Below are positions 2,967 through 47,825 of a DNA stretch of 49,505 bases, piece by piece. Made by a program: the position numbers and the translations under genes. Source of the DNA: a virus; IMG/VR virus record IMGVR_UViG_3300023174_000241, positions 1 through 49,505 of that record; one strand, written 5' to 3'. The notes beneath the pieces are model-generated. The model was not told the origin of the DNA and made no database searches. It saw nothing but the letters and a program-made list of their open reading frames with translations. Position 1 is the stretch's first letter; the number at the start of each line of letters is the position of its first letter.

Positions 2967-2978
2967 CTATAGATTATA

Positions 2979-16600: not shown

Positions 16601-17091
16601 CGTTGGATGACTACAAAATGGTCAGTGACAATCTTGTGTTTAATAGTGTGACATTCAAGCCATTGTTTGGAGCCAAGTCACCATCGCAGTTGCGTGGAAC
16701 TATAAAAGTAATAAAGGCACCAAATACTGTGGCCAGCGACAGCGAGATAAAAAGTCAAGTGATAGCAAACATCAACAATTACTTTACCATTGATAAATGG
16801 GATTTTGGCGATAGCTTCTTTTTCTCAGAGCTATCGGCTTACCTCCATGAAAGAATGGGGTCAATAGTTAGTTCTGTGGTATTAGTACCACTTAATCCCA
16901 CCAAGACATTTGGTGATTTGTACGAAATTAGAAGCGCACCAAATGAAATTTTTGTCAGCGCGGCCACAGTCAATGATGTAGAAGTGATCAGTGCATTAAC
17001 ACAAAGTAATATACGTAGCCAAACACCAGTGGCCGGAATATACCCAAGTAACACCACTTATCAAGGCAGCAGTAACGGAGGTGTTGTATAA
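13621..17091 (+). CDS. 6: gp6-like baseplate wedge protein (baseplate J family)
   Basis: This 1,156-residue protein carries baseplate-J/gp6 hallmarks. Near the N-terminus are FVDYLRLYYPETFNDY, DVMAFMGQALAFRNDL and VVRLANLVSYTPKRNTAAEG, the last being the conserved LAxxLGYxPxxxxAA-type motif. About residue 340 it has LTFGDGVFSSVPVGQFRVYV, the FGDGxxGxxPxxG strand-turn motif. The C-terminal part includes LRGTIKVIKAPN and INNYFTIDKWDFGDSFFFSE, which resemble the end of the J family. gp6 dimers form the iris of the wedge and drive the sheath-contraction switch. T4 gp6 is 660 residues, so about 500 are additional here, probably inserted between conserved blocks. The stop overlaps the start of the giant gene (TAATG). 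Confidence 0.83.
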   Translation: MAKTARQTAIFGVEDWKRLYQTYREADFQSYDFETLRKSFVDYLRLYYPETFNDYTESSEFIALLDVMAFMGQALAFRNDLNSRENFLDTAERRDSVVRLANLVSYTPKRNTAAEGYLKVVAVNTTENINDFNGINLANITIDWNDPTNPNWLEQFTAIVNAAFIDSQKFGRPGNKTSVLGVETSEYTINLIPGFLPIIPYTSTVDGVNMPFEVISGTTLGKDYVYEPSPRPSGAFNMLYRNDNLGFGSDNTGFFFLFKQGVLQDQDFNLAEAIPNRTVNINIEGCNEQDHWLYKLDNLGSVSSEWTYVENIFAGAVEQLAPNQRTLYSITSRANDQVTLTFGDGVFSSVPVGQFRVYVRASNGLEYIINPEEMQNIQVPISYISRNGRLETITFTCGLTTPVTTAQARETIADIKQRAPARYYTQNRMVNGEDYNNFPFTKFNSIIKSKAVARSAVGTSRYIDLTDVTGKYSSTNIFSSDGALYRENVLPSFEFDWFNRNDIVDIITNSIEPIIQGRSMLQFYYDPKNFARPSLTVLAAGWSQSTTLINQTTGYFYQSVPTNPLPIGNYTNSNAKYITVGSLIKFIAPTGYFFDPNNRLQAGIPTRADEKLSVWATVIDVVLEGTAQGLGNLPDGIGPVTLNNFIPSGALADVVIPKFIDDLPSSIEQAMIQQIELLRNFGLGFNNITGEWYLITSTNLAIDAPFSRINAQDTQGLNLDASWLIEFITNGQSYVVTSRGLDYKFASVIETRFLYDAAGEVYDSRTGAVINDFVRVLKTNSRPDSNVPLPTNITMDIIGQPIQSDGFVNDYEVIVSFQDSDADGVADDPDFFYEIVAPEVLPNSKLVFFQQVVDFDNLERYLPLEPGIVNSSYATLDDLELDKADYVNGQIFYTTTSKLFYELVITVVNGTTQRVLIQRFDFAARTGRSSLGFQYRHNSPLSNVIDPGITNIIDMYLVTQAYYTAYQNYIKDTTGTVTEPSPPTLNDLSTAYSSLDDYKMVSDNLVFNSVTFKPLFGAKSPSQLRGTIKVIKAPNTVASDSEIKSQVIANINNYFTIDKWDFGDSFFFSELSAYLHERMGSIVSSVVLVPLNPTKTFGDLYEIRSAPNEIFVSAATVNDVEVISALTQSNIRSQTPVAGIYPSNTTYQGSSNGGVV

Positions 17092-20000
17092 TGGCTTTAC
17101 GTAGAACCGTAGATCTTCTACCCGAAATTTTTAGAACAGACACCAACAAAAAGTTTCTATCCGCCACCCTGGATCAATTGACGCAAGAGCCCAATTTAAA
17201 AAGAACCAAGGGTTTTGTAGGACGGCGTGTTGGTCCCGGAGTCAATCCACTTGACAATTATGTTGTTGAGCCCACAGCCAATCGAACAAATTATCAACTT
17301 GAGCCAGGCGTAGTATTCTTAAAAGATGGCACCGAAGTTGCCGAGGATGCAATAACATACCCAGGCATGATAGACAGTCTTGCCCTGCAAAAAGCCAATG
17401 TTCAACGCCAGGACCGGTTGTGGTCCAGCGAATATTATTCCTGGGATCCATTTTGCGATCTAGACAAATTTACAAACTACAGTCAGTATTATTGGTTACC
17501 AGCTGGACCCGACAGTGTAGATATCAGTACTACTGTAATTCCATTAACTGATAACTTTGATGTAACTCGCAACACCATGAATTACACCTTCTCAGGTGTG
17601 CCAGGCACAAATCCTGTGATTACACTTGCACGTGGCGGAAATTACACTTTTACTGTAAATCAACCAGGGCATAAATTTTGGATACAGTCTGCGCCAGGGG
17701 TTGACGGGGTACTACCAGCAACCCCTAATGTCAGCAGTAGAACAGTGTTGGGAGTGATCAACAATGGTGAAGATCAAGGACAGGTTGAATTTTATGTTCC
17801 TCTCAACACAGCACAAGATTTTTATTATAGTTTAGCAGAAATAGCTCCAGTTGATTTAATTGCAACTACTATTAAATTTAATCAAGTCAACAATGTTTAT
17901 GTAAGCACATTTTTGTCACAATTCCCCAAAGGCATTGACGGCGTCACACAGCTCAATGGCAGAACTGTGGTATTTACTAACAAAATTCAAGGTACCGAAG
18001 AAGGTGGTTGGCAAATCACCACCATGTTTGATCCAATACTTGATTCAGGTGTGCCCGGCGCCTTGGGCACTTACGACACAACTACATTTGATCAAACCAC
18101 TGATATTACAGCACTGAGTCAACGCTACGGTGTGTGGAAAATAAATTATGTCTACGATGAAGACAACAATCCATACATGAGTTTAGAGCGCATAATTGAA
18201 GTTCCAACTCTAACTAAATTTCGTGCATTGTATGGTACACAATGGAGTAGTACATACTGGTACAAAGATTCCAGTGGTTACTTTGTTCAGCAGCCGTTGC
18301 TGACAGCAGTGCAAAATACACTGTATTATCAAGACAGCGAAAACCCAGCAATTTTTGGTCAGATTAAATTGGTGGATGCAAGTCAAACACAGCCAATTGA
18401 CGTCAATGAAATTGTTGGCTCAAAGACCTATACCAGTCCCAATGGCATTGTGCTAACCAACGGGTTAAAAATTCAATTTCGTGGACCTACTACACCAGCT
18501 CAGTATGAAAATTTAGAATACTATGTTGAAGGTGTTGGCACTGGCCCAGGCATCAACCAACGAATTGGATTCATCAACGGAGAAGCCTATTTTGGTGATT
18601 TCCATATTGTCAGTGGACAAAAAATCACAGGACTGTCAAACACAACCACATATCAGCAATATATCTACGACACAGTCGAGGAAAGTTTATTGAATTTTGG
18701 TGTTGGTGGCCCAGATGGTTCCCCACTCCCACAGCAGTCAATCTTTACAACAAACATTGGTAACGGAATTAAATTAATTCCAGTGCAAGACATGGTAACT
18801 CCGGAGCAATACACAAAAAGTGGATTGTTACCGTATAGTAGTACCCCTTACGACATTGGTGGATATGATGCTAGTTTAAATGCACCATTGATCCCAGACT
18901 ATCTCACCATCAATCGAGCAAGCCAGGATAGGAATTCTTGGAGCCGAAGTAATCGTTGGTTCCATGTGGATGTCATTAATTACAGCGCAGCCATAAATGG
19001 CACAGTTGCAGTATTTGACAACGAACTAAGAGCCAAGCGACCAGTTATCGAATTCAATGCAAATCTGCATCTTTGGAACTATGGCACAGAATTTAAACAA
19101 TCAGTAAACATTGTGGATTTCACTCAAACTGATGCATTGAGTGCTGTAAATGGACAGCCCGGATATGGTGTAAATGGTTACACTTTTATTGATGGCACCA
19201 CAGTTATATTTGCCGCTGACAAGGATCCTGCAGTTCGCAACAAAATCTATCGTGTTGATTTTATTGACCCAACTAACTCAGGTACATTGATCATTGATTT
19301 AGTGCCAGTATTAAATGCTGATGCATTGATCAATCAGGTGGTGGTCAGCTTGAATGGATTGACTCAGCAAGGAACAGTGTTTTGGTTTAATGGGGCTACC
19401 TGGCAAGCCGCACAACAAAAAACCAGTGTAAATCAAGCACCGTTGTTTGACGTCTACGATCTTAATGGCATTAGCTTTGGTGATCGAGCCTACTACCCTA
19501 GTACCACATTTGAAGGTACTAGATTATTTGGCTATGCTGAAGGCGGCACCAACATAACAGACGAAGTAATTGGGTTGAGTTTAAAATTCTTAAACATCAA
19601 CAATGTTGGAGATATTGTATTCTCAAACTTCTTCTACGATGATGCATTTATCTATGTCAAAGACAACATCAGTGTTGACACCAAAGTTGGCACTGGATTT
19701 GTAAGACAATACTTTGATCGAGTCAGTTTTAGTAATCAACTAGGCTGGCAAACTGCGGCTGCACCCAATCGAAGCAGACAAGTTTTTAGGTTCACTGACA
19801 CATCTACCAGTTTGATATTAGATGTACCGGTGGATCAAGCGTCGGTGTTCCCGCCAGTGCAAGTCTATGTTGATGGGAAATTCTTTGATCCTGGACAGTA
19901 TTCTTATTCAGTCAGTGACATCAACACCACTATAACATTTTCTACTTTGCCGCCAACTGGCAGTGTGGTTGAAGTACAAGCAATTAGTAATGTAAAAAGC

Positions 20001-23000
20001 TCAGTGGCATTTTATCAAGTGCCTTTGAATTTAGAAAGCAATTCGGTCAACAAAAACAGTTCAGAGTTTACGCTTGGTACAATTAGAAGTTACTATAACA
20101 GCATTGGACAGAATTTAAGAAATGTTCAAGGCAATATCAATGGGGCCAACAACACCAGAGACCTAGGCAATCTAATACCTTACGGCACTGAGATTATACA
20201 AAACTCCAGCCCAATGATGCTGACTGGTGTATTTTTACGTCGACAACAATACGAGTTGTTTAGTGCATTGAATTTCAATAGCACTGAGTATGTAAAATAC
20301 AAGGCATTGGTATGCGACTTGTCGGCCCAGGGCGATTTCATTAATTATACTCCGACCCAAGTGCTTGATGCTGTACTGCAACAGATTAGTTCTGGTAAAA
20401 CCGAAATCAATCCATTTTATTGGTCTGACATGTTGCCTTCTGGTGAAACATACACCGAACTCAACTATACTGTGTCTTTGATCAGCACAGACACTTTTAC
20501 CTTGAGTAGAAGCTATGATTTTACTTCTAGTAATTTCCAAGGACTATTGGTTTATTTGAATGGTACAATATTGACAATGGGATATGATTACACAGTGCCG
20601 GTTGATACCGCAGCCATTGTTGTTTCTGCGCCGTTAACAATCAATGACAAAATTACCATACGTGAGTACCCCACCACCTACGGTAATTTTGTACCAAACA
20701 CGCCTACAAAAATGGGATTGTATCCAGCATACAAACCAGAACTGTACACAGACCTTAGCTACGTAACGCCAACTGATGTTATTCGTGGTCATGATGGTTC
20801 TATCACAGTGGCATTTGGAGACTATCGAGATCAGGTACTGTTGGAATTTGAAAATAGAATTTTCAACAATTTAAAAATCAGATCGCCGATACCTCTGGAT
20901 CTGTCTGATGTAATGCCCGGCGAGTTTAGAACCACCGACTACACCTTGGGCGAAATTAATGACATATTGGCAGTTGACTTTTTATCCTGGACTGGCTTTA
21001 ACAAACTAAACTATTCGCAACAAACGTATTTGGCCAGTGATCCATTTACCTACAACTATAGTCAAAGCGGTAACAGATTAAATGGAGAACCGTTGCTGGG
21101 TGCCTGGCGCGGAATCTACAATTATTTTTATGATACTATAAGCCCAAACACTACTCCCTGGGAGATGTTGGGATTCAGCGAAGAGCCATCATGGTGGGCT
21201 GACCGATATGGTCCTGCACCTTACACATCTGGCAACTTGGTGCTTTGGGGCGATCTTGAACGCGGATATGTAGCCGATCCTGTTGATCCTAAAATAATTC
21301 CCAAATATGCAAGACCTGGCCTTACTTCAGTTATCCCCAGCGACAGCGAAGGCGGCTTAGCAGATCCATTGACTGCGGTGGCCGGTAACTTTGACACCAC
21401 TAGCTTCCGACGTAGTTGGGCATTTGGTGACGACGGGCCAGTCGAAGCCGCCTGGCGCTCTAGCTCAAACTGGCCGTTTGCAGTCATGCGCTTGTTGGCA
21501 TTGACACGCCCGGCTGAATTTTTTAGTCTGTTTGTGGACCGAGATCTCTACAAATTTGATGACACAGTGGGGCAATACCTTTGGAATAATCGAGCAAGAC
21601 TTGAAGCACAAAACATTGCACCCTTGTACGGCAACGGTGAAAGCAAAGCCAGTTATATCAACTGGATTATTGATTATAATCAACAGTTGGGAGTCAACAG
21701 CACTACACAACTTGAAACCACATTGAATAACATTGATGCTCGGTTGTGCTGGAGGCTTGCGGCATTTTCAGATAAAAATTATCTCAAGTTATACACTGAA
21801 AGATCTACACCAGGTGGCACAAACACCAGTTTGTTGTTGCCCGATGAAAGCTATCAAATTTTACTGTACCAAAATCCAGCATTTGATCAATTGACATTTA
21901 GTTCAGTTATTGTGCAAGTGACTGATGATGGCTGGGCAGTGTTTGGATACAGCACAATGTCCAATTACTTTGATATATTCCAATCTAAGCCCAGTGGTCT
22001 AACCACTGAAGTGATTGCTGGCGGCAGTGCAGAAACAATTCCCATAGAATACACATCAAATGTTGTGCAAGTTCCGTATGGATTTGTGTTTACAAACAGA
22101 GCCGCAGTCTGTGATTTCTTGTACAGTTATGGCAAGTTTCTTGAAGCACAAGGCATGACATTTGACGGCGTAGAAAACGGCTATGTCATGGACTGGAAAC
22201 AAATGGCAGTTGAGTTCCTTTACTGGAGTAATCAGGGATGGAGCAGTGGTGGCATCATCAACCTTAACCCAGGCGCGGCCAAAGTCAATGTGATCAAGCC
22301 AGGTGCTGTGGTCGAGAGTTTAACACCCACACGCATCAATAATATTATATTGAATCAAAATAGACAGCCATTGCCCAAGGCAGATTTAATAATCAATCGA
22401 TTGGGCAATGACTTTAATATTGTTACCACGTCTTCAAATACCATCAACTATCTACAGTTGAGATTCACTGCCTATGAACACATCATTGTTTTAGACAACC
22501 GCAGTATTTTTGCTGACTTGATTTATGATCCAATAACTGGAGCTAGACAAAGCAGAATATTAGTGAATGGCTGGTTGAGTGGTGACTGGAATGGCACAGT
22601 CAATGCACCGGGCTTTGTGTTAAATCAAGACAACATACAAGAATGGAAATCCAGCCAGAAGTACAGCAAAGGCGACATTGTATTATTTAAAAACGAATAC
22701 TGGAGCGCGGCATTAATTGTACCAGCAAGTCAAGAATTTGATTATGCTGTTTGGCTAAAAAGCGATTATGCACAAGTTCAGAAAGGGTTGTTGCCCAACG
22801 CCGCCAATGCCAGCGATCAACTGGCATTATCATACAGCACTTACAATGCTAACTTGGAACAAGAAACCGATTTGTTCAGTTATGGGTTGATTGGATTTAG
22901 ACCACGCGATTACATGCAGGCCCTGAATCTAGATGATGTCAGCCAAGTAAATCTTTATCAACAGTTCCTGGGCAGTAAAGGCACACGCCGTAGCACTGAG

Positions 23001-26000
23001 TTGTTTAGTTTTGCTGATCTTGGCAAAGAAACTGCACAATATGATATCTATGAACATTGGGCGGTATTAAGAAGTGTGTACGGCGCCAACGCCAACAGAA
23101 GTTATTTTGATCTAAGATTAAATCAAGCTTTGTTGCCCAGCGACCCCAGCATCATACAAGTTGTACAACCAGAACAAGTCAGTCAGGCTGACCAAACTGT
23201 GCTAGTGTCAGATATATGGCAAAGCAGTTACAAGATTACGTCGCCCAACATATTACCAACAACCTTGACAACACCAACTGACATTGGATTACCGTCTGCT
23301 GGTTATGTTAGTTTAAGTGATGTTGACATTACTGTGTTTGATTTAGTAGATCCAACAAACATAGCCACAGCCATTGATTCAATAGGTGTGGGAACCACAG
23401 TGTGGGTAGCCAAAGTCAATACCTTTGATTGGAATGTGTACATAAGTCAAAAGGTATCTGGCAGCGTTGTGCAAGTTGAAGACAACTTAAACGGATCTTC
23501 TATTGCTACATTTGATGCTGTGCATGGACTAAAAGTCAATGATATTGTTATAATTAAAAACTTTTCAGACACAATCAATGGAGTATATCATGTACTTGCA
23601 ACACCTACCCTGGAATCTATCACCATTGACTACACATTTGCTGACAATCAATCAACCGAAGTTGGCACCGGTCTAGCATTGACTCTTAAAACAACACGAG
23701 TATCACAACCCAGCGACATCTTGAATTTAGATTTTGCTGACCAATTGATACCCGGGGTCCGTGTCTGGGTTGATGATAACGGAACTGGTAGATGGGCCAC
23801 ACTAGAAAAAACTGATCCCTTTATTGAAGATGCTACACTGACGCCAGCCACACTCTATGAGCGAAGTTTATTTGGGGCCAGTGTTGCTCAAGGATTGTTT
23901 AATTCAAGTGCAATGGTTGGGGCACCGGGTTACAACCCCAATAACCTAACAAATGCTCCAGGTGGTGTGTACACTTTTGTACGAACTGACCAGGACATCT
24001 ATGCCGAAAACAGTATTTTAAGTATAAATGCAACTGATACAGTTGGGTACGGCAACGCCATGGACATTGGCGACAAAAATTGGGGAGTGGTTGGTGCCAG
24101 CGCAAGTAACAATTATAGCGGATATGTAACAACAATTTATGTTGCGTCGAGCAGTAGTTTCTTTGATCAACGACAACTATTAGTACCGCCGGATCAGGAA
24201 TTTGGCGCAGCAGAATTTGGTTATTCAGTGACCATGTCTCAAAATGAACAGTGGATGTTTGTGGGTGCACCTGGCAAAAACAAAGTGCATGCTTACACAC
24301 AGGTTCCAGTACAACGCCAACTTATAACTTATGTAACTGATGGCCAACTTGGCAGTTACAATTACAACGATTACATGTCGGTTACTCCAGGACAGCCAGA
24401 ACAAATCAGTGTGGTGTTAGACAACACCTTATTGGTGTACGGAGTCAATTACACAGTAACAGCAACTGATGTCATATTGGCTAGTATTCCAGTGGCGGGA
24501 TTGGAATTGACCATCACACGTAAAAGTGGTGTGCAATTAGATCGCGGCATCTATTTTGATGTAGTGCCAACTTCTACTTCTGGCTCAGGCATTAATGCAA
24601 CATTTACTGTGAACCGGGTGCGTGGTGTTTATTACACAACTTTGCAAGATGCTGGGTCCGGCTACAATGTGGCAGACACTATTACTATTTCGGCAGCATC
24701 TGTTGGCGGCGGCACAAGTCCAGCCAACGATTTGGTGTTGACAGTCACTGACGTCAGTCCTGGTGGCACACTGATATCATTTAGTCAATCGGGCTCAGGA
24801 GTGACCAACACCAGTGTTTTCCAATTAGATCCTTATTTGGCCACGGCAACAAACATATATGCATTTACAGTGCGTGTTAATGGAGAGTTGTACAGACCTT
24901 ACTTGGACTACGATTTTAACTCAGACAGTGCATATCAGCAGTATGATCTAGTGTTTAACACTGTGCCTCTAGCTGGCGCTGATATTTTAGTGTCTTCGGA
25001 CAGCTATTTTGATTTTGTTGAAACACTGACAGTTCCGGGACTGAGTGAAAATGCTAGATTTGGTCATAGCATAAGTTGCAACAGCAACGGAAGTATAATT
25101 TTAGTTGGCACACCAAACACAAATTCAGCGCAAGGCGCCACCTATGTGTTTGATAGGAATGTACAACAATTCATCATCACTGATCCAACACAAACCAACT
25201 ATACAACAGTGCAGAGTCTTGTGACTCCAGGCTATGTGTCAGCAACACTCAATGGGCAGTTTTTAGTTAACACCAATCAGAATATTAATGGAACATACAC
25301 TGTTGATATTAGCTCGCCCGGCAACGAATTTGTCAACATTGGAACTCCGCTAGCTATTGGCGATGTTTTGGAAATTGAAACAAATCAAATCACGTTGGTA
25401 GAAGTAATAGTGAGCCAACAACCGGGTGATGATGCCGCGTTTGGATACAAACTGGATCAATGTGTCAACGATTGCAGCCTGTATATTTCGTCACCATTTA
25501 ACAGTACAATTTTGCCCGAAGCTGGGCAAGTGGAATTTTTCCAGAACCAAAGCAGAGTATATGGAACTATAACATCAACAGTGGCCAACCCTGTGTTGAC
25601 TGCTGGTGATTACATCAGGTTAAACAATCAGTATGTCGAATGTCCAGGGACCACGGTCAAGGATCTAGCAACTGCTGTGAATTCGGCTAACATACCCAAC
25701 GTGGCTGCTACTCTGTTACCAGACCTTGTGCTAGTGGGTGATGGCGCCACACAGTCGTTTGACATCGGTACAATTTACACTGACGCAGTAAGCTACACTC
25801 CTGTGGTATACATTGATGATGTTTTACAAACAGTCAATGTTGACTACGTTGTAGTCAACGATGTTCAAATTAATTTCACTACTGCACCTGACTATCGTGC
25901 TGTCATTGTAGTTGTAGCAGGCAGAGTAACATTTAGTGTGATTAATTATGATGCTAGTACCCCGTTGAATCGTCTGCAAGTATTGCCAGGTACTGGAACA

Positions 26001-29000
26001 GCATTGGATGATCTAGGCCTAGAAATTTATGTGTGGCAGCAAACCATTATTGGCCCAAATCCACAACCACTGAGTCATTTTGGTCAAGGGCTATCTATCA
26101 GCAATAACACCACCACATTGTTGGTGGGAGCACCAAACGGTAACATGGTATCGCCAACTACATTTGACCATGGTACAACTTATTTTGATAGCCACAGCAC
26201 TGTTTTTGCAGATTCTACTTTGCAAAGTGGCGTGGTATATTCGTTTGACGCATTACCGCCGGCTAACCCCACAGTGACTAATCCGTTGAAATTTGTATTT
26301 GGACAGCAATTTGTAAACTCGTCTATACAACCGTTGGACCAGTACGGCACAGCAATTGATTATACAACTGGAACATTGTTGATTGGCGCCCCTGGAAGTG
26401 ATCTTGAAGACAGTGCACTAGCAAATTACGGCAAGGTAATTCAGTACCATAATGTGGATCAAGGGCCAGCCTGGAAACAAATTAGAGTTCAAGAAGAAGT
26501 GGTTGATGTGGCATTGTTGGACACCATCTACATGTACAACGCCGCAACTGGCGGCCCAAGCCAATATTTTGATTATTTTAATCCCTTGCAGGGACGATTG
26601 TTGGGAGTTGTTCGACAAAACTTAGATTACATTGGGGCAGTAAACCCAGCTGCCTATAACCAAGGACCGGTCAACAATTATGGACAGCGTTGGGGACAAG
26701 AACGTGTCGGACACATTTGGTGGGATACCAGCAATGTTAGATTCCTTGATCCAAATCAAGATGACGTTGTGTACGCCAGCCGTCGATGGGGTCAACCTTT
26801 CCCGGGCAGCTCCATTGATGTGTATCAATGGGTAGTCAGTGATGTAAGCCCAGCAAATTACACTGGGCCCGGAACACCACGAGACATTGACAGCTACTCA
26901 ATGTCATCAAGTCTTGACTTGCAAGGGTTTGTGACAACACAGTATTACTTCTGGGTTACAGGGATTAGAACTGTGGATCGTTCTGCTAGAAAAACACTGA
27001 GTGTTGATACTCTAACACGATACATTGAGAGTCCAAGAAGCAGTGGCATTAGTTACATTGCTCCGTTGAATTCAAGCACAGTGGCAATCTACAATGGGTT
27101 AGAGTACATAAGTGCACAAGACACTGTCCTACACATTGAATTTGATAAACAGGCCACAGAAGCTGAAGTTCACGTCGAGTATCAGCTAATACCCGAAGGC
27201 AAAGCAGACGGCTTCTTGAATCCAACTCTGTACAGAAAACTCATAGACAGCTTGAGCGGAGTAGACACTGCTGGCAATGCAGTGCCTGATCCATTGTTGA
27301 GCCCCAGCCAACGTTACGGAATTGAGTTTAGACCACGCCAAAGCATGGTGGTTGATAGATTCCTGGCATTAAACAATTACCTAACACAGGCCAATAGTGT
27401 GCTGGCAAAATATCCCATCAGCGAAATTAAAAAGTTTAATATATTAAACAGTTTTGAAGCTGAGCCACCAGTCAGTAGTAATGCCTGGGACAAACGCCTG
27501 GCCAACATTGAAGAATTGAGTTATCAAGATCTGTATGAGGTACCAGTTGGCTATACATATCTAGTGGCCACAGACAGTACCAACAGTGGCTTATGGACCA
27601 TTTATCAAGTAAATGCAACTGCACTATTAGCTGAACGATATCTAACTTTGATTAGAGTACAAAACTATGACACACGACTGTATTGGAATTACATTGATTG
27701 GTACAGCCCAACATATAACCAATTCACCAGGGTCAACGCCGAAGTGCCCAATCGAAGTAGTCTAGACACATTGACTTTACCAAATGGTTCCACAGTTAAA
27801 GTAACTTACAACTCTCAGTTAAAATGGGAAATCTATCAGTTAGTAAATGGACAATGGATCCGGGTGGGCTTGCAAGACGGAACGATTGAGTTCAAGAGTA
27901 GTCTATGGAGTTACTCAGTTGGTAGATTTGGATTTGACAGCGAAGTGTTTGACGCACAATATTTTGATCAAGCACCGGTTATTGAAACACGAAAAATCAT
28001 TGAAGCCATCAATCAAGAATTGTTCATTGATGAACTGTTGATTGAACGCAATCGCTTGTTGATGTTGATGTTTAACTACATACTCAGTGAGTTAATTGCT
28101 CCGAGCTGGCTGATGAAAACCAGCTTGATTGATGTAGATCACACAATTCGAGATTTGGTACCTTATCAAATATATCGTCGAGATAATCAAGACTTTGTAC
28201 TTGACTACATCAACGAGGTCAAACCTTATCATGTACAAATTAGAGAGTTTAATCTCAAGTATCAGGGACAGGACATCTTCCAGGGATCATTGACTGACTT
28301 TGATTTGCCAGCGTACTATGACACTGCGTCAGGCTTGTTTATTAGCCCAGTACTTGACAACACAGGAACAGTGAGTTCTACTAGCAGTAGACCCAGCACT
28401 GATCCAATTTGGCAGACTTTTCCGTGGAATCAATGGTACCAAAACTATCTGTTAACCATTAACGATGTCACAATTGTCAATGCTGGTAGCGGATATACTG
28501 TGCCGCCAACTGTTGTTGTAACTGGTGATTGTGTATCACCAGCTGTTATGACTGCGCAAATCAACAGTGCTGGAAAATTAATTGGCATCATAATAGTTGA
28601 TGGTGGCGATGGTTATTCAGAAACTGCTACTATAACACTTGAAGGTGGCAATGGATCCGGTGCTCAAGTTGTTGCTGTGATGGGCAATGCACTTGTTAGA
28701 AATTTACTGACAGTGATCAAATATGACCGCTATCAATACCAAGCAAATCTTGCACAGTGGCAACCAAATGTGACTTATTTACAAGGTGCCCTGGTTCGAT
28801 ATGGAAACATTGTTTGGGAAGCCAATGTAACCAACACGGCTGACGATTTTGACACCGGCAGTTGGACAGTGATCCCTGCCGGTGAGTTATCGGGGGTTGA
28901 CCGAACCATGGGCTATTATGTGCCCACAGTGGATCAGCCTGGACTAGACCTAGGACAACTAATATCCGGAGTAGACTACCCAGGAGTGCAAGTATCAGCC

Positions 29001-31244
29001 CCGGGCTTTGATCAAAACACAGGTTATGATCTAGGATTGTTTGATGCACTGCCATATGACAACATTGATTATGGCCCAGAAGGACAACCTACATATGATC
29101 CAGCAATATTGGACACCATATACGAAAGTTATTTCCTTGACAGTTACTTGGGCACACGCCCAACTGACATCAATGTTGATGGTGGTGCCTTTGTTGACAC
29201 TTATGAAAGTCATGCCCCTGAAGAATTAGTTCCTGGCATAACATATGATACACTGGATATGAGAGTGTTTACAACACCAGGTGCAGGCTGGCAAGGAATT
29301 GGTCATGGTTCCCCGCATGCATCACGTGCGGTTGTGTTCGATACACTAGTACCTACACTGTCATTTGCTGACTTGTTGGATTACCCGTTTGTAGTTGAAG
29401 TGTATAATTCCACAACTGGGTTGGCCTTGACACCTACTAGCTACGATTGGATAAATTATCAATTTGATCTCAGCACCGGTGCGGTTGATGGAGACATCAT
29501 TCAGATTCAAGCCTATGGTGTTGGCGGTGGAAATCAATTGTATATTAACAGCTTTATAGGCAACACAGTCAATGATGGATTAACAATACCATTCCCGGCT
29601 GCCGACATCAATGAGTTTGTGATCTACAATGGTGAAACATATCTAGAACCACAACGGTATACATTCTTCCCACTTGATGACTACAACACCTTGCTGTTAT
29701 TCACAGATGACTACACTAGTAACGACAGAATTAATCTAGTTGCGCTTGGGTTTGCGGCGTCTGGGACAACGCACAGTTGGAGTCTACCAGTTACACAAAT
29801 CTGGGTGTCTGACGGTGCGGCTAGCACATCCATAAGGGCCGATAGTCTCATTGGCACCAATCCAGTAAACTTGATTGTTACTCGAAATGGTCTGCGAGCA
29901 AGACCCTATGAAGGCGCAAAATATATTGGTGATGGCACCACAGTGACGTACGAGCTACCCACACGTGGGGGATACAGTCAATCTTTGATAGCTGACAACG
30001 ATGTGTCAGTTTATGTCAACAACACTGCATTGATATTGGGTGTTGGGTATGTGGTTGACCCATATGATGGTATCAATCCAATGACAGTCACCATAACACA
30101 AACCCCTGCAGTTGATTCTTCAATTTTAATTGCAGTGAGAACACAGGCTCAATATTGGGTGACTGGTAATCAACTGCAATTCAGACCCAGCCAGGGATTC
30201 TTGCCACAGGTAGGAGATGTAATTGAGATTACAACTTGGAATGACACATCTGAACAAGATATAGTAACACAGGTATTTGTTGGACCAACTACCTCGGGCA
30301 CACTAATTGGACAAGGGTATGATGAAAGTTTCTATGATTCTGGGGCGATAAACAACAGCCCAGGCACATTTGATTTTAGTCTAGGAATTCAGATCAAGTC
30401 AAATATTTTCTACACCGGACGAGATCTCAGTAAGCCCGAATCACTGACAGTGACACTAAATGGCAAGTTTATTTTCTATGGTCAGGATTACACCATTGAT
30501 GGTTCAAACATTGTTGTTGCAGGACCCACTATTAATCCACAAGCAGTGTTGACAGTTATGTCAACTACAACAACTGTTGTTCCGGCAGCAATGGCATTTA
30601 GAATCTTCCAGGACATGCGTGGATTGCAAAGCACTTATCGTATCACACCTGATACTACAACTAAGTTGTCTCAAGCTCTTTCACAGACTGATCTGGTAAT
30701 ATATGTTGAAGATGCAAGTCGATGTCCTGAGCCAAAATTAGAATATGGTTATTTTGGACTGATAACCATCAATGGAGAGCGCATAGCATATCGTCAACGA
30801 GACTTGGCCACTAATACATTGCTGGGACTACGACGCGGCACAGCCGGAACAGCTATAGACAATCATGCAGTTGATTCTTATGTGTATGATATAACCAGCA
30901 ACAATTATGTTCCAGTTGAGTACCAAAATTACTATGATCGACAGGAGTTCTTGGGTGATGGATCTACCACAGTATTTGCAACAGATTCTATAACAATTGA
31001 TCCAACATTGACTCATGCAGTTGAAGTACTAGTTGGTGGAATATTACAAAATTCTGGATACTCAATCACAGCCGAAGATCCAGTAGTGGTCACATTTGCT
31101 ACAGCACCTTTGGCCAATTACCAAGTCAGCATCCGAGTACTGAGAGCAGAAAGCTGGTATGAACCAGGCACAAGCACAGCCAGTAACGGTGTGCCCTTGC
31201 AAGAAACACAGACCAAAGCCGCAAGGTTTTTCCGTGGGGTTTAA
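17091..31244 (+). CDS. Giant gp7-position baseplate/tail-fibre protein, 4,717 aa, with FG-GAP propeller
   Basis: The gene is one uninterrupted frame. The N-terminus (LPEIFRTDTNKKFLSATLDQ) is of a type I associate with very large structural proteins of aquatic T4-like phages. By order after gp6 it takes the place of gp7, which is 1,032 residues in T4. Visible modules: a cupredoxin-like beta domain near 163-246; carbohydrate-binding-type W/Y modules near 1849-1890 and 3890-3930; seven FG-GAP blades across about 2256-3123; and beta modules starting with GDG-T-x-x-[FY] near 2881, 4278 and 4619. A GE-x-I-x-Y...GLRRGTAGT module lies near 4537-4600. There is no enzyme motif. It likely forms the baseplate periphery and a host-contact structure. 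The stop lies five bases before a perfect late promoter. Confidence 0.7.
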   Translation: MALRRTVDLLPEIFRTDTNKKFLSATLDQLTQEPNLKRTKGFVGRRVGPGVNPLDNYVVEPTANRTNYQLEPGVVFLKDGTEVAEDAITYPGMIDSLALQKANVQRQDRLWSSEYYSWDPFCDLDKFTNYSQYYWLPAGPDSVDISTTVIPLTDNFDVTRNTMNYTFSGVPGTNPVITLARGGNYTFTVNQPGHKFWIQSAPGVDGVLPATPNVSSRTVLGVINNGEDQGQVEFYVPLNTAQDFYYSLAEIAPVDLIATTIKFNQVNNVYVSTFLSQFPKGIDGVTQLNGRTVVFTNKIQGTEEGGWQITTMFDPILDSGVPGALGTYDTTTFDQTTDITALSQRYGVWKINYVYDEDNNPYMSLERIIEVPTLTKFRALYGTQWSSTYWYKDSSGYFVQQPLLTAVQNTLYYQDSENPAIFGQIKLVDASQTQPIDVNEIVGSKTYTSPNGIVLTNGLKIQFRGPTTPAQYENLEYYVEGVGTGPGINQRIGFINGEAYFGDFHIVSGQKITGLSNTTTYQQYIYDTVEESLLNFGVGGPDGSPLPQQSIFTTNIGNGIKLIPVQDMVTPEQYTKSGLLPYSSTPYDIGGYDASLNAPLIPDYLTINRASQDRNSWSRSNRWFHVDVINYSAAINGTVAVFDNELRAKRPVIEFNANLHLWNYGTEFKQSVNIVDFTQTDALSAVNGQPGYGVNGYTFIDGTTVIFAADKDPAVRNKIYRVDFIDPTNSGTLIIDLVPVLNADALINQVVVSLNGLTQQGTVFWFNGATWQAAQQKTSVNQAPLFDVYDLNGISFGDRAYYPSTTFEGTRLFGYAEGGTNITDEVIGLSLKFLNINNVGDIVFSNFFYDDAFIYVKDNISVDTKVGTGFVRQYFDRVSFSNQLGWQTAAAPNRSRQVFRFTDTSTSLILDVPVDQASVFPPVQVYVDGKFFDPGQYSYSVSDINTTITFSTLPPTGSVVEVQAISNVKSSVAFYQVPLNLESNSVNKNSSEFTLGTIRSYYNSIGQNLRNVQGNINGANNTRDLGNLIPYGTEIIQNSSPMMLTGVFLRRQQYELFSALNFNSTEYVKYKALVCDLSAQGDFINYTPTQVLDAVLQQISSGKTEINPFYWSDMLPSGETYTELNYTVSLISTDTFTLSRSYDFTSSNFQGLLVYLNGTILTMGYDYTVPVDTAAIVVSAPLTINDKITIREYPTTYGNFVPNTPTKMGLYPAYKPELYTDLSYVTPTDVIRGHDGSITVAFGDYRDQVLLEFENRIFNNLKIRSPIPLDLSDVMPGEFRTTDYTLGEINDILAVDFLSWTGFNKLNYSQQTYLASDPFTYNYSQSGNRLNGEPLLGAWRGIYNYFYDTISPNTTPWEMLGFSEEPSWWADRYGPAPYTSGNLVLWGDLERGYVADPVDPKIIPKYARPGLTSVIPSDSEGGLADPLTAVAGNFDTTSFRRSWAFGDDGPVEAAWRSSSNWPFAVMRLLALTRPAEFFSLFVDRDLYKFDDTVGQYLWNNRARLEAQNIAPLYGNGESKASYINWIIDYNQQLGVNSTTQLETTLNNIDARLCWRLAAFSDKNYLKLYTERSTPGGTNTSLLLPDESYQILLYQNPAFDQLTFSSVIVQVTDDGWAVFGYSTMSNYFDIFQSKPSGLTTEVIAGGSAETIPIEYTSNVVQVPYGFVFTNRAAVCDFLYSYGKFLEAQGMTFDGVENGYVMDWKQMAVEFLYWSNQGWSSGGIINLNPGAAKVNVIKPGAVVESLTPTRINNIILNQNRQPLPKADLIINRLGNDFNIVTTSSNTINYLQLRFTAYEHIIVLDNRSIFADLIYDPITGARQSRILVNGWLSGDWNGTVNAPGFVLNQDNIQEWKSSQKYSKGDIVLFKNEYWSAALIVPASQEFDYAVWLKSDYAQVQKGLLPNAANASDQLALSYSTYNANLEQETDLFSYGLIGFRPRDYMQALNLDDVSQVNLYQQFLGSKGTRRSTELFSFADLGKETAQYDIYEHWAVLRSVYGANANRSYFDLRLNQALLPSDPSIIQVVQPEQVSQADQTVLVSDIWQSSYKITSPNILPTTLTTPTDIGLPSAGYVSLSDVDITVFDLVDPTNIATAIDSIGVGTTVWVAKVNTFDWNVYISQKVSGSVVQVEDNLNGSSIATFDAVHGLKVNDIVIIKNFSDTINGVYHVLATPTLESITIDYTFADNQSTEVGTGLALTLKTTRVSQPSDILNLDFADQLIPGVRVWVDDNGTGRWATLEKTDPFIEDATLTPATLYERSLFGASVAQGLFNSSAMVGAPGYNPNNLTNAPGGVYTFVRTDQDIYAENSILSINATDTVGYGNAMDIGDKNWGVVGASASNNYSGYVTTIYVASSSSFFDQRQLLVPPDQEFGAAEFGYSVTMSQNEQWMFVGAPGKNKVHAYTQVPVQRQLITYVTDGQLGSYNYNDYMSVTPGQPEQISVVLDNTLLVYGVNYTVTATDVILASIPVAGLELTITRKSGVQLDRGIYFDVVPTSTSGSGINATFTVNRVRGVYYTTLQDAGSGYNVADTITISAASVGGGTSPANDLVLTVTDVSPGGTLISFSQSGSGVTNTSVFQLDPYLATATNIYAFTVRVNGELYRPYLDYDFNSDSAYQQYDLVFNTVPLAGADILVSSDSYFDFVETLTVPGLSENARFGHSISCNSNGSIILVGTPNTNSAQGATYVFDRNVQQFIITDPTQTNYTTVQSLVTPGYVSATLNGQFLVNTNQNINGTYTVDISSPGNEFVNIGTPLAIGDVLEIETNQITLVEVIVSQQPGDDAAFGYKLDQCVNDCSLYISSPFNSTILPEAGQVEFFQNQSRVYGTITSTVANPVLTAGDYIRLNNQYVECPGTTVKDLATAVNSANIPNVAATLLPDLVLVGDGATQSFDIGTIYTDAVSYTPVVYIDDVLQTVNVDYVVVNDVQINFTTAPDYRAVIVVVAGRVTFSVINYDASTPLNRLQVLPGTGTALDDLGLEIYVWQQTIIGPNPQPLSHFGQGLSISNNTTTLLVGAPNGNMVSPTTFDHGTTYFDSHSTVFADSTLQSGVVYSFDALPPANPTVTNPLKFVFGQQFVNSSIQPLDQYGTAIDYTTGTLLIGAPGSDLEDSALANYGKVIQYHNVDQGPAWKQIRVQEEVVDVALLDTIYMYNAATGGPSQYFDYFNPLQGRLLGVVRQNLDYIGAVNPAAYNQGPVNNYGQRWGQERVGHIWWDTSNVRFLDPNQDDVVYASRRWGQPFPGSSIDVYQWVVSDVSPANYTGPGTPRDIDSYSMSSSLDLQGFVTTQYYFWVTGIRTVDRSARKTLSVDTLTRYIESPRSSGISYIAPLNSSTVAIYNGLEYISAQDTVLHIEFDKQATEAEVHVEYQLIPEGKADGFLNPTLYRKLIDSLSGVDTAGNAVPDPLLSPSQRYGIEFRPRQSMVVDRFLALNNYLTQANSVLAKYPISEIKKFNILNSFEAEPPVSSNAWDKRLANIEELSYQDLYEVPVGYTYLVATDSTNSGLWTIYQVNATALLAERYLTLIRVQNYDTRLYWNYIDWYSPTYNQFTRVNAEVPNRSSLDTLTLPNGSTVKVTYNSQLKWEIYQLVNGQWIRVGLQDGTIEFKSSLWSYSVGRFGFDSEVFDAQYFDQAPVIETRKIIEAINQELFIDELLIERNRLLMLMFNYILSELIAPSWLMKTSLIDVDHTIRDLVPYQIYRRDNQDFVLDYINEVKPYHVQIREFNLKYQGQDIFQGSLTDFDLPAYYDTASGLFISPVLDNTGTVSSTSSRPSTDPIWQTFPWNQWYQNYLLTINDVTIVNAGSGYTVPPTVVVTGDCVSPAVMTAQINSAGKLIGIIIVDGGDGYSETATITLEGGNGSGAQVVAVMGNALVRNLLTVIKYDRYQYQANLAQWQPNVTYLQGALVRYGNIVWEANVTNTADDFDTGSWTVIPAGELSGVDRTMGYYVPTVDQPGLDLGQLISGVDYPGVQVSAPGFDQNTGYDLGLFDALPYDNIDYGPEGQPTYDPAILDTIYESYFLDSYLGTRPTDINVDGGAFVDTYESHAPEELVPGITYDTLDMRVFTTPGAGWQGIGHGSPHASRAVVFDTLVPTLSFADLLDYPFVVEVYNSTTGLALTPTSYDWINYQFDLSTGAVDGDIIQIQAYGVGGGNQLYINSFIGNTVNDGLTIPFPAADINEFVIYNGETYLEPQRYTFFPLDDYNTLLLFTDDYTSNDRINLVALGFAASGTTHSWSLPVTQIWVSDGAASTSIRADSLIGTNPVNLIVTRNGLRARPYEGAKYIGDGTTVTYELPTRGGYSQSLIADNDVSVYVNNTALILGVGYVVDPYDGINPMTVTITQTPAVDSSILIAVRTQAQYWVTGNQLQFRPSQGFLPQVGDVIEITTWNDTSEQDIVTQVFVGPTTSGTLIGQGYDESFYDSGAINNSPGTFDFSLGIQIKSNIFYTGRDLSKPESLTVTLNGKFIFYGQDYTIDGSNIVVAGPTINPQAVLTVMSTTTTVVPAAMAFRIFQDMRGLQSTYRITPDTTTKLSQALSQTDLVIYVEDASRCPEPKLEYGYFGLITINGERIAYRQRDLATNTLLGLRRGTAGTAIDNHAVDSYVYDITSNNYVPVEYQNYYDRQEFLGDGSTTVFATDSITIDPTLTHAVEVLVGGILQNSGYSITAEDPVVVTFATAPLANYQVSIRVLRAESWYEPGTSTASNGVPLQETQTKAARFFRGV
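23860..26460 (+). repeat. Seven FG-GAP (integrin-alpha-type) repeats encoded within the giant gene
   Basis: Seven segments share the pattern [FY]G-x-[SAG]-[VIL]...VGAP...G-x-[VA]-Y-x-[FY]. They begin near bases 23871 (FGASVAQ), 24040 (YGNAMDI), 24217 (FGYSVTM), 25060 (FGHSISC), 25440 (FGYKLDQ), 26080 (FGQGLSI) and 26340 (YGTAIDY). Blades 3-4, 4-5 and 5-6 are separated by long insertions holding other beta modules. Seven is the number needed for a closed integrin-type propeller, and Asp/Asn-rich loops could bind calcium. Confidence 0.65.
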
Positions 31245-32061: not shown

Positions 32062-33720
32062 ATGGCGTATACCATTAATTTAACAGATGGCAGCATATTT
32101 GCTACTATAGCAGATGGTACCATCAATACCAGTTCAAGCATGATACTGGTGGGTAAAAACTATGCCGGCTACGGCGAGTTTTTAGATGAAAACTTTATTC
32201 ATCTCTTGGAAAACGGTGCAAACAACACCGCACCAGGCGCACCTTTGACTGGACAACTTTGGTGGGATAAAACCAATAACTTGTTAAAAGTTTACAATGG
32301 TACTACCTTTAAAGTAATTTCTGCCAGCACAGCCAGTGCTAGTCAGCCAACCAGCAATGTCACTGGAGATCTTTGGTTTGATACCACAAATCAACAGTTG
32401 AAAGTTTACAATGGTTCTGCATGGATTTTAGTTGGACCAGCCAGCACCAGCGGACAAGGTACTTCGGGTGCCATTGTTACCACACTCACCGACAACGTCA
32501 GTGTTGACCATGTGGTGATTCAGTTATTTGTGCAAAATACTCTAGTTGGTATTATATCCAAAGATGCAACATTTACTCCAGTTCCGTCAGTCAGCGGGTT
32601 TACTACAATCAGTCCAGGCATACAATTAAGTACCACTGTATCAAGTGCTTTGTTTAGAGGAACTGCTACAGATGCTCAGTTACTAAACACTCTATCTAGC
32701 ACACAATTTTTACGCAGTGATGCCAATGACACTACATCGGGCACATTGGGCATACTCAATGACAGTGGAGTAACTGTTGGCTTGGACCAAGATGCCAAGA
32801 TTTCTGTCAATACTGCAACTTCTGAAGTAACATTTCAGAATCAAACACAAGATGGCAATCTTAGTTTTAAAATCAATGATGGTGGCGTAACAACCACTGC
32901 TATTTTTGTCAACGGATCCACTAGCGCAGTTAGTATCCCTACAACACTGTCAGTGACAGGCAACGTAACTGGTGGAAACTTAGTAACCAGTGGAGCATTC
33001 CAGGCAGCATCAATTAGTGCAACTGGCAATATCACTGGTGGCAATTTAGTCACCACAGGTGTTGTCAGTGTGACTGGAAATGCCACTGTGGGCAATATCA
33101 GTGCAACCAGCATTGTTGGTACATTGACCACAGCAAGTCAACCCAACATCACAAGTCTGGGCGCATTGTCATCATTGGGTGTGGCTGGTAATGCCACAGT
33201 GGCTGGGACAATATCAGTCAACACAAACGGTGGAGTGTTGGCCATTCTCAATGGCGGTGGTAACGGAGTAGGTAATATTGGCAGTTCGACTAGCTATTTT
33301 AACACAGTATTTGCAACTTCGACTAGTGCTCAATATGCCGACGTTGCTGAAAGATTTTCATCTGATTCAGCGTACGAAGCAGGTACTGTGGTTGAGTTAG
33401 GTGGTGTCCACGAAGTCACAATTAGCAATGAAGATCTAAGTGAAAATGTGTTTGGTGTGGTAAGTACACGAGCAGCTTATTTGATGAACTCTGGTGCAGG
33501 AAATGATGCAACGCATCCACCGATTGCTATGACCGGACGAGTACCAGTTAGAATATCGGGAAAAATCAATAAAGGTGATAGATTAGTCAGTGCCGGTAAC
33601 GGATTGGCCAGGGCTGCTCTACCCGGAGAAGCCACAGCGTTTAATGTTATCGGACGTGCACTTGAATCTTCAGATAGTTTGACTTCTCAAACTGTAGAAG
33701 CTATAGTAACAATAAAATAA
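32062..33720 (+). CDS. Tail-fibre protein with TGNxTGGN repeats and C-terminal chaperone/G2-like domain
   Basis: The N-terminus contains two copies of a G[QD]LW[WF]D-x-TN...LKVYNG motif (GQLWWDKTNNLLKVYNG and GDLWFDTTNQQLKVYNG), typical of phage fibre attachment regions. The middle has repeats of the form SVTGNVTGGNLVT, SATGNITGGNLVT and SVTGNATVGN followed by TASQPNITSLGALSSLGV, a pattern of fibrous beta structure. The C-terminal ~130 residues start at YADVAERFSSDSAYEAGTVV and continue through NVFGVVSTRAAYLMN, IAMTGRVPVRISG and KGDRLVSAGNG. This resembles the peptidase-G2 or intramolecular-chaperone endings that assist fibre trimerisation and may be cleaved. The catalytic residues were not verified. 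It likely forms a trimeric host-recognition fibre. Confidence 0.72.
   Translation: MAYTINLTDGSIFATIADGTINTSSSMILVGKNYAGYGEFLDENFIHLLENGANNTAPGAPLTGQLWWDKTNNLLKVYNGTTFKVISASTASASQPTSNVTGDLWFDTTNQQLKVYNGSAWILVGPASTSGQGTSGAIVTTLTDNVSVDHVVIQLFVQNTLVGIISKDATFTPVPSVSGFTTISPGIQLSTTVSSALFRGTATDAQLLNTLSSTQFLRSDANDTTSGTLGILNDSGVTVGLDQDAKISVNTATSEVTFQNQTQDGNLSFKINDGGVTTTAIFVNGSTSAVSIPTTLSVTGNVTGGNLVTSGAFQAASISATGNITGGNLVTTGVVSVTGNATVGNISATSIVGTLTTASQPNITSLGALSSLGVAGNATVAGTISVNTNGGVLAILNGGGNGVGNIGSSTSYFNTVFATSTSAQYADVAERFSSDSAYEAGTVVELGGVHEVTISNEDLSENVFGVVSTRAAYLMNSGAGNDATHPPIAMTGRVPVRISGKINKGDRLVSAGNGLARAALPGEATAFNVIGRALESSDSLTSQTVEAIVTIK
32951..33066 (+). repeat. Imperfect direct repeats coding for TGNxTGGNLVT units
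   Basis: Two units of about 36 bases, near 32955-32990 and 33022-33058, share most bases (core GGCAA-N5-ACTGGTGG-N-AA-N-TTAGT-N-ACCA). They encode the same fibre motif, with a degenerate third copy after 33066. Such copies can recombine and change fibre length. Confidence 0.55.
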
Positions 33721-37895: not shown

Positions 37896-38623
37896 AAAAT
37901 ATTTTAATAATTGCTGACCTAGGTGCCGCCGGTAATTTAATTAAGAATTTACTTTGGTTAAGTTCAGAAGTGGACTGGCCGATACCCAAAGATAAAAATA
38001 CAACCATATTAAATCAATACACCGCAGATACTAGTTTTACACAGTGGTTACACAAAGAATCTCAGTTGAGAGTTTGGAAGCACTACTATGGGATTGACCT
38101 ATCATATGACTTGGATTACTCAACATTTAATAAACATTTTATCAAAAAAGATTTGCCAGTTGTTTTTTTAAATCACTCAGCTTTCTATCAATTGAACAAA
38201 GTCGGCGAATTCGTTGACAATTTTACTACATTGTATATTCGACCAGTCACAGACTTTGGGCTTGAGTGGCAGGTAAGGAGTTATTGTGAAAAAAAATCTG
38301 TGGAACAATTACATAATTTTTCGTTCAACAATAGCCCAGAACAGGAGCGTGATGAATTTATAAGAATTAATGGTCACGATGCATATTATCGTCTTAACAT
38401 AGATAATATGCGTGAGATAATTAGAGATAGACAACATCACCTGGATAAAATAATTCAAAATAAAATAGACCTTGAAACTATTTTATCAGGTAGCACAGAT
38501 GAAATTGCCAATGCTTTGCCGGTCACAGTTGATAAAGCACTAATTACTAAAGTAGTCACCACCTGGCGCAGTCTACACTGGCCGCTAGAAACCACACTTG
38601 ACTGGGAATATACCAATGTCTAA
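37889..38623 (+). CDS. Unrecognised protein, 244 aa, with nucleotide-binding-like N-terminus
   Basis: It begins VKNILIIADLGAAGNLIKNL, a hydrophobic strand followed by a Gly/Ala-rich turn and helix. This resembles the phosphosulfate or nucleotide loop of sulfotransferase-like and glycosyltransferase-like proteins without a complete Walker A. A second strand, LPVVFLNHSAFYQL, and a helical Glu/Arg/His-rich C-terminus follow. It overlaps the previous gene by 7 bases and the aminotransferase by 8, so it belongs to the same operon. A role in transferring a sulfate or sugar group is possible but not shown. The base composition looks more AT-rich than the virion genes. Confidence 0.55.
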   Translation: MVKNILIIADLGAAGNLIKNLLWLSSEVDWPIPKDKNTTILNQYTADTSFTQWLHKESQLRVWKHYYGIDLSYDLDYSTFNKHFIKKDLPVVFLNHSAFYQLNKVGEFVDNFTTLYIRPVTDFGLEWQVRSYCEKKSVEQLHNFSFNNSPEQERDEFIRINGHDAYYRLNIDNMREIIRDRQHHLDKIIQNKIDLETILSGSTDEIANALPVTVDKALITKVVTTWRSLHWPLETTLDWEYTNV

Positions 38624-39209
38624 CACAGTTGAATTATTTGAAAAAAGAATAGCCGAATTTTATGGAGCAAAATATGCAGTAGCTGTGGATTGCTGTACAC
38701 ATGCAATTGAGTTATGCCTAAGAATGCTAAACCCAACAGCAGTTACTTGCACTAGTAACACTTATTTGTCAATTCCAATGACATTTGAAAAGCTAAATTT
38801 GGAATGGGCGTTTGTTGAGGAAGACTGGCACGACTATTATTACATTGGAAATACAAACATCATTGATGCCGCAGTACACTGGAAGCGTGACGGTTATGTT
38901 CCTGGATCATTAATGTGTTTAAGTTTTCAATATAGAAAGCATTTAAACTTGGGTCGAGGCGGCATGATATTGTTAGATAACAAAGAACAATACGAGCAAT
39001 TATCTAAAATGCGCTTTGATGGTCGTACTGATGATACGCCCTGGAAGATGCAAGATATAACAACTATTGGATACCATTACTACATGACTATTGAGACTGC
39101 CCAACTTGGGTTAGAAAAATTAAATCAAGCAATTGAACGATCACCAGTCAAGCAAGGACATCAAAATTATCCACATTTACCATCATTCACAGTTTTTAAA
39201 AACAAATGA
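38616..39209 (+). CDS. Miniature DegT/DnrJ/EryC1-type sugar aminotransferase
   Basis: The family uses pyridoxal phosphate to aminate keto-sugars bound to nucleotides. Visible landmarks are FEKRIAEFYGAKYAVAVDCC at the start and NIIDAAVHW with the cofactor-contacting Asp at 84. LSFQYRKHLNLGRGGMILLD follows, where K108 sits in the family's S-F-x3-K-x-L-x2-G-x-GG lysine motif. GYHYYMTIETAQLGLEKL matches the family GyNyRM...A..GL.QL block. The protein is only 197 residues against about 370-400. Roughly 70 residues before the lysine and the C-terminal small domain are missing, yet the frame is clean. I chose the ATG at 38616 over an upstream TTG at 38598. It may be a minimal active enzyme, or a non-catalytic sugar-binding relative. 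Confidence 0.7.
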   Translation: MSNTVELFEKRIAEFYGAKYAVAVDCCTHAIELCLRMLNPTAVTCTSNTYLSIPMTFEKLNLEWAFVEEDWHDYYYIGNTNIIDAAVHWKRDGYVPGSLMCLSFQYRKHLNLGRGGMILLDNKEQYEQLSKMRFDGRTDDTPWKMQDITTIGYHYYMTIETAQLGLEKLNQAIERSPVKQGHQNYPHLPSFTVFKNK

Positions 39210-47820: not shown

Positions 47821-47825
47821 GCCCG

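Follow-up and report, generated by a model that had tools for sequence, protein, structure and literature searches.

FG-GAP propellers are known from integrins and from bacteria, and DxDxDG loops joining strands A and B of the blades are among the defining marks of the integrin type (PMC3192720, PMC8023676). The papers searched on FG-GAP repeats in baseplates yielded no description of such a propeller inside a baseplate wedge protein. IMG/VR virus record IMGVR_UViG_3300023174_000241, analysed here over its whole length of 49,505 bases (the window), encodes seven FG-GAP_2 blades within a giant protein of its baseplate gene cluster. By structure prediction these blades form a complete seven-bladed propeller with the integrin-alpha head fold, set at a fixed site in the protein encoded after gp6 and lacking calcium motifs. 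We consider it fairly probable that this propeller acts as a calcium-independent, rigid interaction hub on the outside of the baseplate.

Motifs of the FG/GAP type start at amino acids (aa) 2261, 2320, 2376, 2657, 2784, 2997, and 3085 of the open reading frame (ORF). The propeller region scores 58 bits with Pfam FG-GAP_2 (PF14312), above the curated cut-off of 23 and hence within the family, which also matches 16/16 of the first relatives. Across 83 relatives the seven motif positions stand in register, with FG-to-GAP distances of 19, 18, 19, 19, 19, 19, and 17 residues for blades 1-7 and almost no exception. Seven consecutive FG-GAP/Cage repeats, as specified in PMC3192720, are present, with the variants GAS in blade 2 and GTP/SSP in blades 4 and 5 of the window. 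The A-B loop of blade 5 carries C2791/C2795 (C-x3-C, 25461-25475), a possible disulphide or metal site, both cysteines being present in 80/83 relatives. Each blade was also left out in turn from the training set of a hidden Markov model (HMM), with 2,000 shuffles as control: blades 1, 3, 4, and 6 beat all shuffles (blade 3 narrowly), and 8 of the 2,000 equalled or beat blade 7. Blades 2 and 5 were not recovered by the HMM of the other blades, so support for both comes from the family alignment and the models. The HMM shuffles, the FG-GAP_2 score, and the register among relatives rule out chance repeats, and the seven repeats noticed in the first-pass annotation hold up by motif, family, register, and models alike.

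Two AlphaFold2 models were built, one from 16 sequences over aa 2090-3165 and one from 61 sequences over aa 2200-3150. The 61-sequence model reaches a predicted local distance difference test score (pLDDT) of 90.2 and a predicted template-modelling score (pTM) of 0.88, each of the five models scoring 88-90 in pLDDT; the corresponding values for the 16-sequence model are 76 and 0.76. For both models, the VIA top 50 consists of integrin alpha chains only, with Z up to 41.3 for the 16-sequence model and up to 34.9 (2.7 Å over 359 residues, 18% identity) for the 61-sequence model. The alignment places aa 2242-3131 onto integrin alpha residues 1-452, which is the whole propeller. Foldseek with the 61-sequence model likewise ranks integrins first, and cyanophage A4 chain 9k09_U is among its matches. 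Assigned by DSSP on the same model, each blade comprises strands A-B-C followed by strand D just ahead of the next FG. This model also has a strand at aa 2245-2250, close to the point (aa 2242) where the VIA alignment begins on integrin residue 1; it is a candidate for the strand that completes blade 7 and so closes the ring in the integrin manner, with aa 3128-3133 as the alternative strand.

Structure prediction therefore gives the single closed ring that had been suggested from the repeats, integrin-alpha-like in both models (Z 32-41), with ring closure and insert positions as predicted features. Separate beta domains are ruled out by models that match the complete integrin alpha propeller. 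That the FG-GAP-like repeats are dispersed over such domains and never close is accordingly extremely improbable: the sequence signal of blades 2 and 5 is weak and the repeats are broken up by long modules, but both models match a whole propeller, and carriers in which most inserts are absent, such as L204, still have seven FG-GAP blades in a row.

The interrupting modules had been located between blades 3 and 6. They are present, but they sit inside blades 3, 4, and 5 rather than simply between blades: in the 61-sequence model the D strand of each of these blades follows only after a long insert (Table 1), which indicates that the modules leave from the C-D loops of adjacent blades. They are thereby predicted to lie on the face that in integrins binds calcium through A-B and C-D loops (PMC3192720). 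The blade-3 insert contains 'VxLNNxLLxYGxDYxV'-type modules and one GSGY-type module, and spans 142-316 aa in relatives under a close definition, whereas the blade-4 insert is nearly constant in length. The blade-5 insert (99-211 aa in relatives) holds a T7-tail-fibre-N-like module at aa 2881-2941 in the window and, in other lineages, either a CBM_5_12 module or neither of the two; judging from these sequences, accessory modules are swapped between lineages. In L193, a divergent carrier, an apparent CBM_5_12-like module was read by eye in blade 2 rather than blade 5. The giant protein of the window has a CBM_5_12 (chitin-binding type) module above the Pfam cut-off downstream of the propeller, at aa 3889-3917 (28755-28841).

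Calcium-dependent binding, expected by the first-pass annotation, did not survive a search for DxDxDG loops: the motif is absent from every A-B loop of the window propeller, and these loops are short and, in nearly all of the 83 relatives, fixed at 17-19 residues from FG to GAP. DxDxDG-like matches in relatives fall in the hairpin that precedes blade 1, with a few in inserts. By sequence, FG-to-GAP spacing of this length belongs to the calcium-free FG_GAP_2 kind, and the A-B loops rule out a calcium-dependent propeller. The domain is consequently not classed as a strict integrin-type propeller, although the fold is the same; the predicted integrin fold here dispenses with calcium.

The propeller is inserted at one fixed site of the giant protein. 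In cultured jumbo phages the homologous proteins align on either side of this site with no blades between, the BLAST boundaries leaving 90-1,500 aa of other sequence there. RaK2/PBECO4/CBB have about 220 aa at the site, and Atu_ph07 and Phosso have other sequence of about 1,540 aa. The site in the propeller-less locus L194 is filled by GSGY-type repeats over about 900 aa. The hairpin just upstream of the propeller probably belongs to its junction with the core, and propeller-less homologues have similar hairpins on either side of the insertion site. Such varied occupancy would suit a passive spacer that merely fills and stiffens the wedge, like the unrelated beta modules found there elsewhere. 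We regard this as unlikely, since a spacer would not require seven blades and an invariant D, T, D loop motif throughout a clade.

At least 216 IMG/VR contigs, some of 320-353 kb, encode relatives of the propeller. All seven blade profiles are matched in 70/80 nearest core relatives; among the other ten, eight run off the contig, one (L165) has no blade-2 match, and one (L171) ends early. A wider search anchored on PA5oct recovered loci of both kinds, with 54 (window included) carrying blades between the conserved flanks and 20 lacking them, mostly with 218-534 aa there. A tblastn search of the propeller against 50,697 named phage records gave no match, and searches for near or distant DNA matches found none. 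On quick, unrooted core trees that draw on the best 80 matches per query among 500 or more core sequences and leave the propeller out (60 rows, and 26 rows including the window), a single branch separates carriers from non-carriers, with a Shimodaira-Hasegawa-like approximate likelihood ratio test (SH-aLRT) support of 100, so that one gain or one loss explains the distribution. This event splits a large environmental jumbo-phage clade from the relatives of PA5oct, Atu_ph07, RaK2, and PBECO4. The propeller is a clear clade marker, and its carriers form a natural series with and without each accessory module.

A conserved motif lies in the B-C loop of blade 6, which is extra long at 32 residues. 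D3026, T3030, and D3033 are invariant, and F3025 and F3032 nearly so. FDxxxTxF occurs in 80/83 close relatives, and a slightly looser form in 53/54 wider carriers and 0/20 non-carriers, against a background of 0.05 per 1,000 aa. High conservation combined with low predicted order would be expected of a binding loop, which makes this motif a candidate functional site.

The protein that carries the propeller is matched by phrog_10938, 'virion structural protein', over four stretches (E 1.9e-279, profile search). BLAST relates it to named proteins of eight jumbo myophages (PA5oct, Atu_ph07, Phosso, SCTP-2, Vibrio 2.275.O, CBB, PBECO4, and RaK2). Upstream lie homologues of the baseplate hub/lysozyme, gp25, and gp6, the ORF following directly after gp6. 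The 'gp7-position' assigned to it at first stands as gene order (gp25, gp6, ORF, as in T4); sequence similarity to T4 gp7 was undetected (hhalign probability 0.2%), in a weak test with T4 gp7 as a single sequence. The record of the PA5oct homologue, gp355, carries a mass-spectrometry note placing it in the virion. In phAPEC6, gp245 is a 382-kDa virion protein encoded directly after baseplate wedge gp244 and identified by 17 peptides in mass spectrometry (PMC7247149); from its size and position we take it to be a homologue. A sequence search for solved relatives found none for the protein core and a chance-level match only for the propeller, and a search of bacterial genome assemblies for the core, made in pursuit of a host link, gave no match. 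The giant protein varies most at aa 4101-4450 (29391-30440, + strand), with about 30-50% identity to relatives; this stretch is a likelier host-range tip than the propeller. A separate tail-fibre-like gene lies downstream of the giant ORF at 32062-33720.

On the hub interpretation, the propeller would be a rigid ring with both ends anchored in the wedge protein. The blade-6 B-C loop (TTFDxxxTxFD) would bind a partner that every member of the clade shares; the likeliest candidates are a second tail protein and some conserved feature of the host surface. The C-D-loop modules of blades 3-5, on the face opposite this loop, may serve as exchangeable side attachments, some perhaps sugar-binding. We slightly favour a tail-protein partner over a host receptor, because conservation is moderate and even (mean pairwise identity 0.44-0.55 for propeller plus inserts, 0.64 for the core) and because the tail-fibre-like gene is separate. 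The propeller is not hypervariable and gives no sign of host-range diversification.

These same observations bear on the role originally put forward, a host-receptor-binding head, which in its calcium-free form would have the propeller or its modules bind a bacterial-surface receptor or glycan and help set host range. Beta-propellers do serve in some phage receptor-binding proteins, as reported for phi11 (PMC4901313). CBM_5_12 modules occupy the blade-5 insert of some relatives, accessory modules differ between lineages, and a related jumbo phage has FG-GAP proteins that bear the annotation haemagglutinin. Besides the even conservation and the separate fibre gene, the internal site, 1,600 residues from the C-terminus, speaks against it. 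A receptor head, most plausible through the CBM-like modules, is the chief alternative to the hub, but we consider it doubtful.

Several points also count against the hub. No cultured phage carrying the propeller was found, and its position in the virion is read from gene order and homology only. The ring itself is a predicted one and the partner of the blade-6 loop a putative one; model confidence is lowest in this loop (pLDDT 49-64), whose shape the model does not give. Conservation, moreover, cannot separate a structural partner from a conserved receptor.

Read as an evolutionary sequence, and only tentatively, the ancestor of the clade would have gained an integrin-alpha-like wedge propeller whose blade-6 loop became an obligatory site for a shared partner, with lineages hanging different modules on it; it would then be the phage equivalent of the integrin head as a platform for adhesion. 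Should the loop recognise a host feature, the propeller would be a conserved adhesion device; if it binds a tail protein, it would explain fibre recruitment by giant wedges. Either way, a complete propeller of the integrin-head type is now placed, by prediction and gene order, in the baseplate of a widespread jumbo-phage group.

Table 1. Coordinates of the giant protein and of the features in and next to its propeller (positions in the window).
Feature	Residues (aa)	Positions	Strand	Basis
Giant baseplate-region virion protein (P0001)	4,717 in total	17091..31244	+	open frame, phrog_10938, gene order
Hairpin just upstream of propeller, VRVWVDDNGTGRWATLEK	2223-2240	23757..23810	+	sequence reading; strand in model
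Seven-bladed FG-GAP_2 propeller (ring predicted)	2242-3131	23814..26483	+	VIA alignment of two models to integrin alpha 1-452; Pfam FG-GAP_2
Strand ahead of blade 1	2245-2250	23823..23840	+	DSSP of model, VIA alignment start
Blade 1	2261-2310	23871..24020	+	motif, held-out HMM, DSSP
Blade 2	2320-2364	24048..24182	+	motif, DSSP; missed by held-out HMM
Blade 3, strands A-C	2376-2405	24216..24305	+	motif, held-out HMM, DSSP
Blade 3, C-D loop insert	2406-2638	24306..25004	+	alignment, survey of relatives, DSSP
Blade 3, strand D	2639-2646	25005..25028	+	DSSP
Blade 4, strands A-C	2657-2695	25059..25175	+	best single FG-GAP_2 stretch 2644-2687; held-out HMM
Blade 4, C-D loop insert	2696-2758	25176..25364	+	survey of relatives, DSSP
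Blade 4, strand D	2759-2773	25365..25409	+	DSSP
Blade 5, strands A-C, with C2791/C2795	2784-2819	25440..25547	+	family survey, DSSP; missed by held-out HMM
Blade 5, C-D loop insert	2820-2979	25548..26027	+	Pfam, alignment, DSSP
Blade 5, strand D	2980-2986	26028..26048	+	DSSP
Blade 6, with extra-long B-C loop (aa 3015-3046)	2997-3074	26079..26312	+	held-out HMM, DSSP, conservation
Blade 6 loop motif TTFDHGTTYFD (candidate functional site)	3023-3033	26157..26189	+	conservation
Blade 7, strands A-C	3085-3120	26343..26450	+	motif, held-out HMM, DSSP

A minus-strand ORF at 23899-24300, overlapping the propeller region, is without support, and searches of the window for Rfam families and transfer RNAs found none. 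Elsewhere in the window, 40197-49503 (+ strand) encodes five or more radical-SAM proteins, of which three have SPASM domains, alternating with proteins that have no Pfam match; the run is unusually dense for a phage and possibly forms a peptide- or sugar-modifying cluster. A DegT/DnrJ/EryC1 aminotransferase at 38598-39209 (+ strand) is shortened to 203 aa, its best stretch covering positions 163-239 of the 360-position profile.

Among described proteins, the phrog_10938 members (PA5oct gp355, Atu_ph07 gp180, and those of RaK2 and PBECO4) are the same protein in the same gene order, with conserved blocks at aa 1-145, 600-2030, and 3115-3750, but their site lacks the propeller. Free-standing FG-GAP proteins of Atu_ph07 (gp320) and Phosso (gp107, gp108, gp129, and gp130) have FG-GAP_2 repeats like those of the propeller, yet they are encoded by separate genes rather than within a baseplate protein, and their sequence similarity to it is weak. 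Atu_ph07 gp320, annotated 'hemagglutinin' (L187 5019-6200), has 393 aa and, by eye, seven FG-GAP_2 repeats, and lies beside tail-sheath-annotated genes. The Sinorhizobium phage Phosso (L185 4339-24979, L186 2125-4533) encodes two neighbouring FG-GAP_2 proteins, 3,162 and 3,692 aa long, in which the repeats number in the dozens, and two further ones of about 393 aa; repeat matches over all four total 55. In BFVD, Foldseek also finds integrin-like FG-GAP proteins from uncultured phages and giant viruses (A0A6J5L8L4, A0A6J5S3H5, and others; E down to 3e-29), mostly unnamed or uncharacterised; A0A6J5L8L4 could be part of a homologous protein.

With FG-GAP_2 repeat proteins in general (PF14312) the propeller shares a family score above the cut-off and short calcium-free A-B loops; unlike the usual members, which are not baseplate proteins, it has long modules within three blades and a clade-specific blade-6 loop. 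In integrins, the I domain lies between blades 2 and 3, on the face opposite the calcium-binding face formed by A-B and C-D loops. The phage propeller, like integrin alpha, bears extra domains on its loops and may have a closing strand ahead of blade 1, but its inserts occupy the C-D loops of blades 3-5. It further differs from integrin alpha in having no calcium sites, in an identity of about 18%, and in lying inside a phage structural protein. With integrin alpha and the bacterial integrin-type propellers (Chouhan et al. 2011, PMC3192720) it has in common seven four-stranded FG-GAP blades and, as predicted, the same fold over the whole domain.

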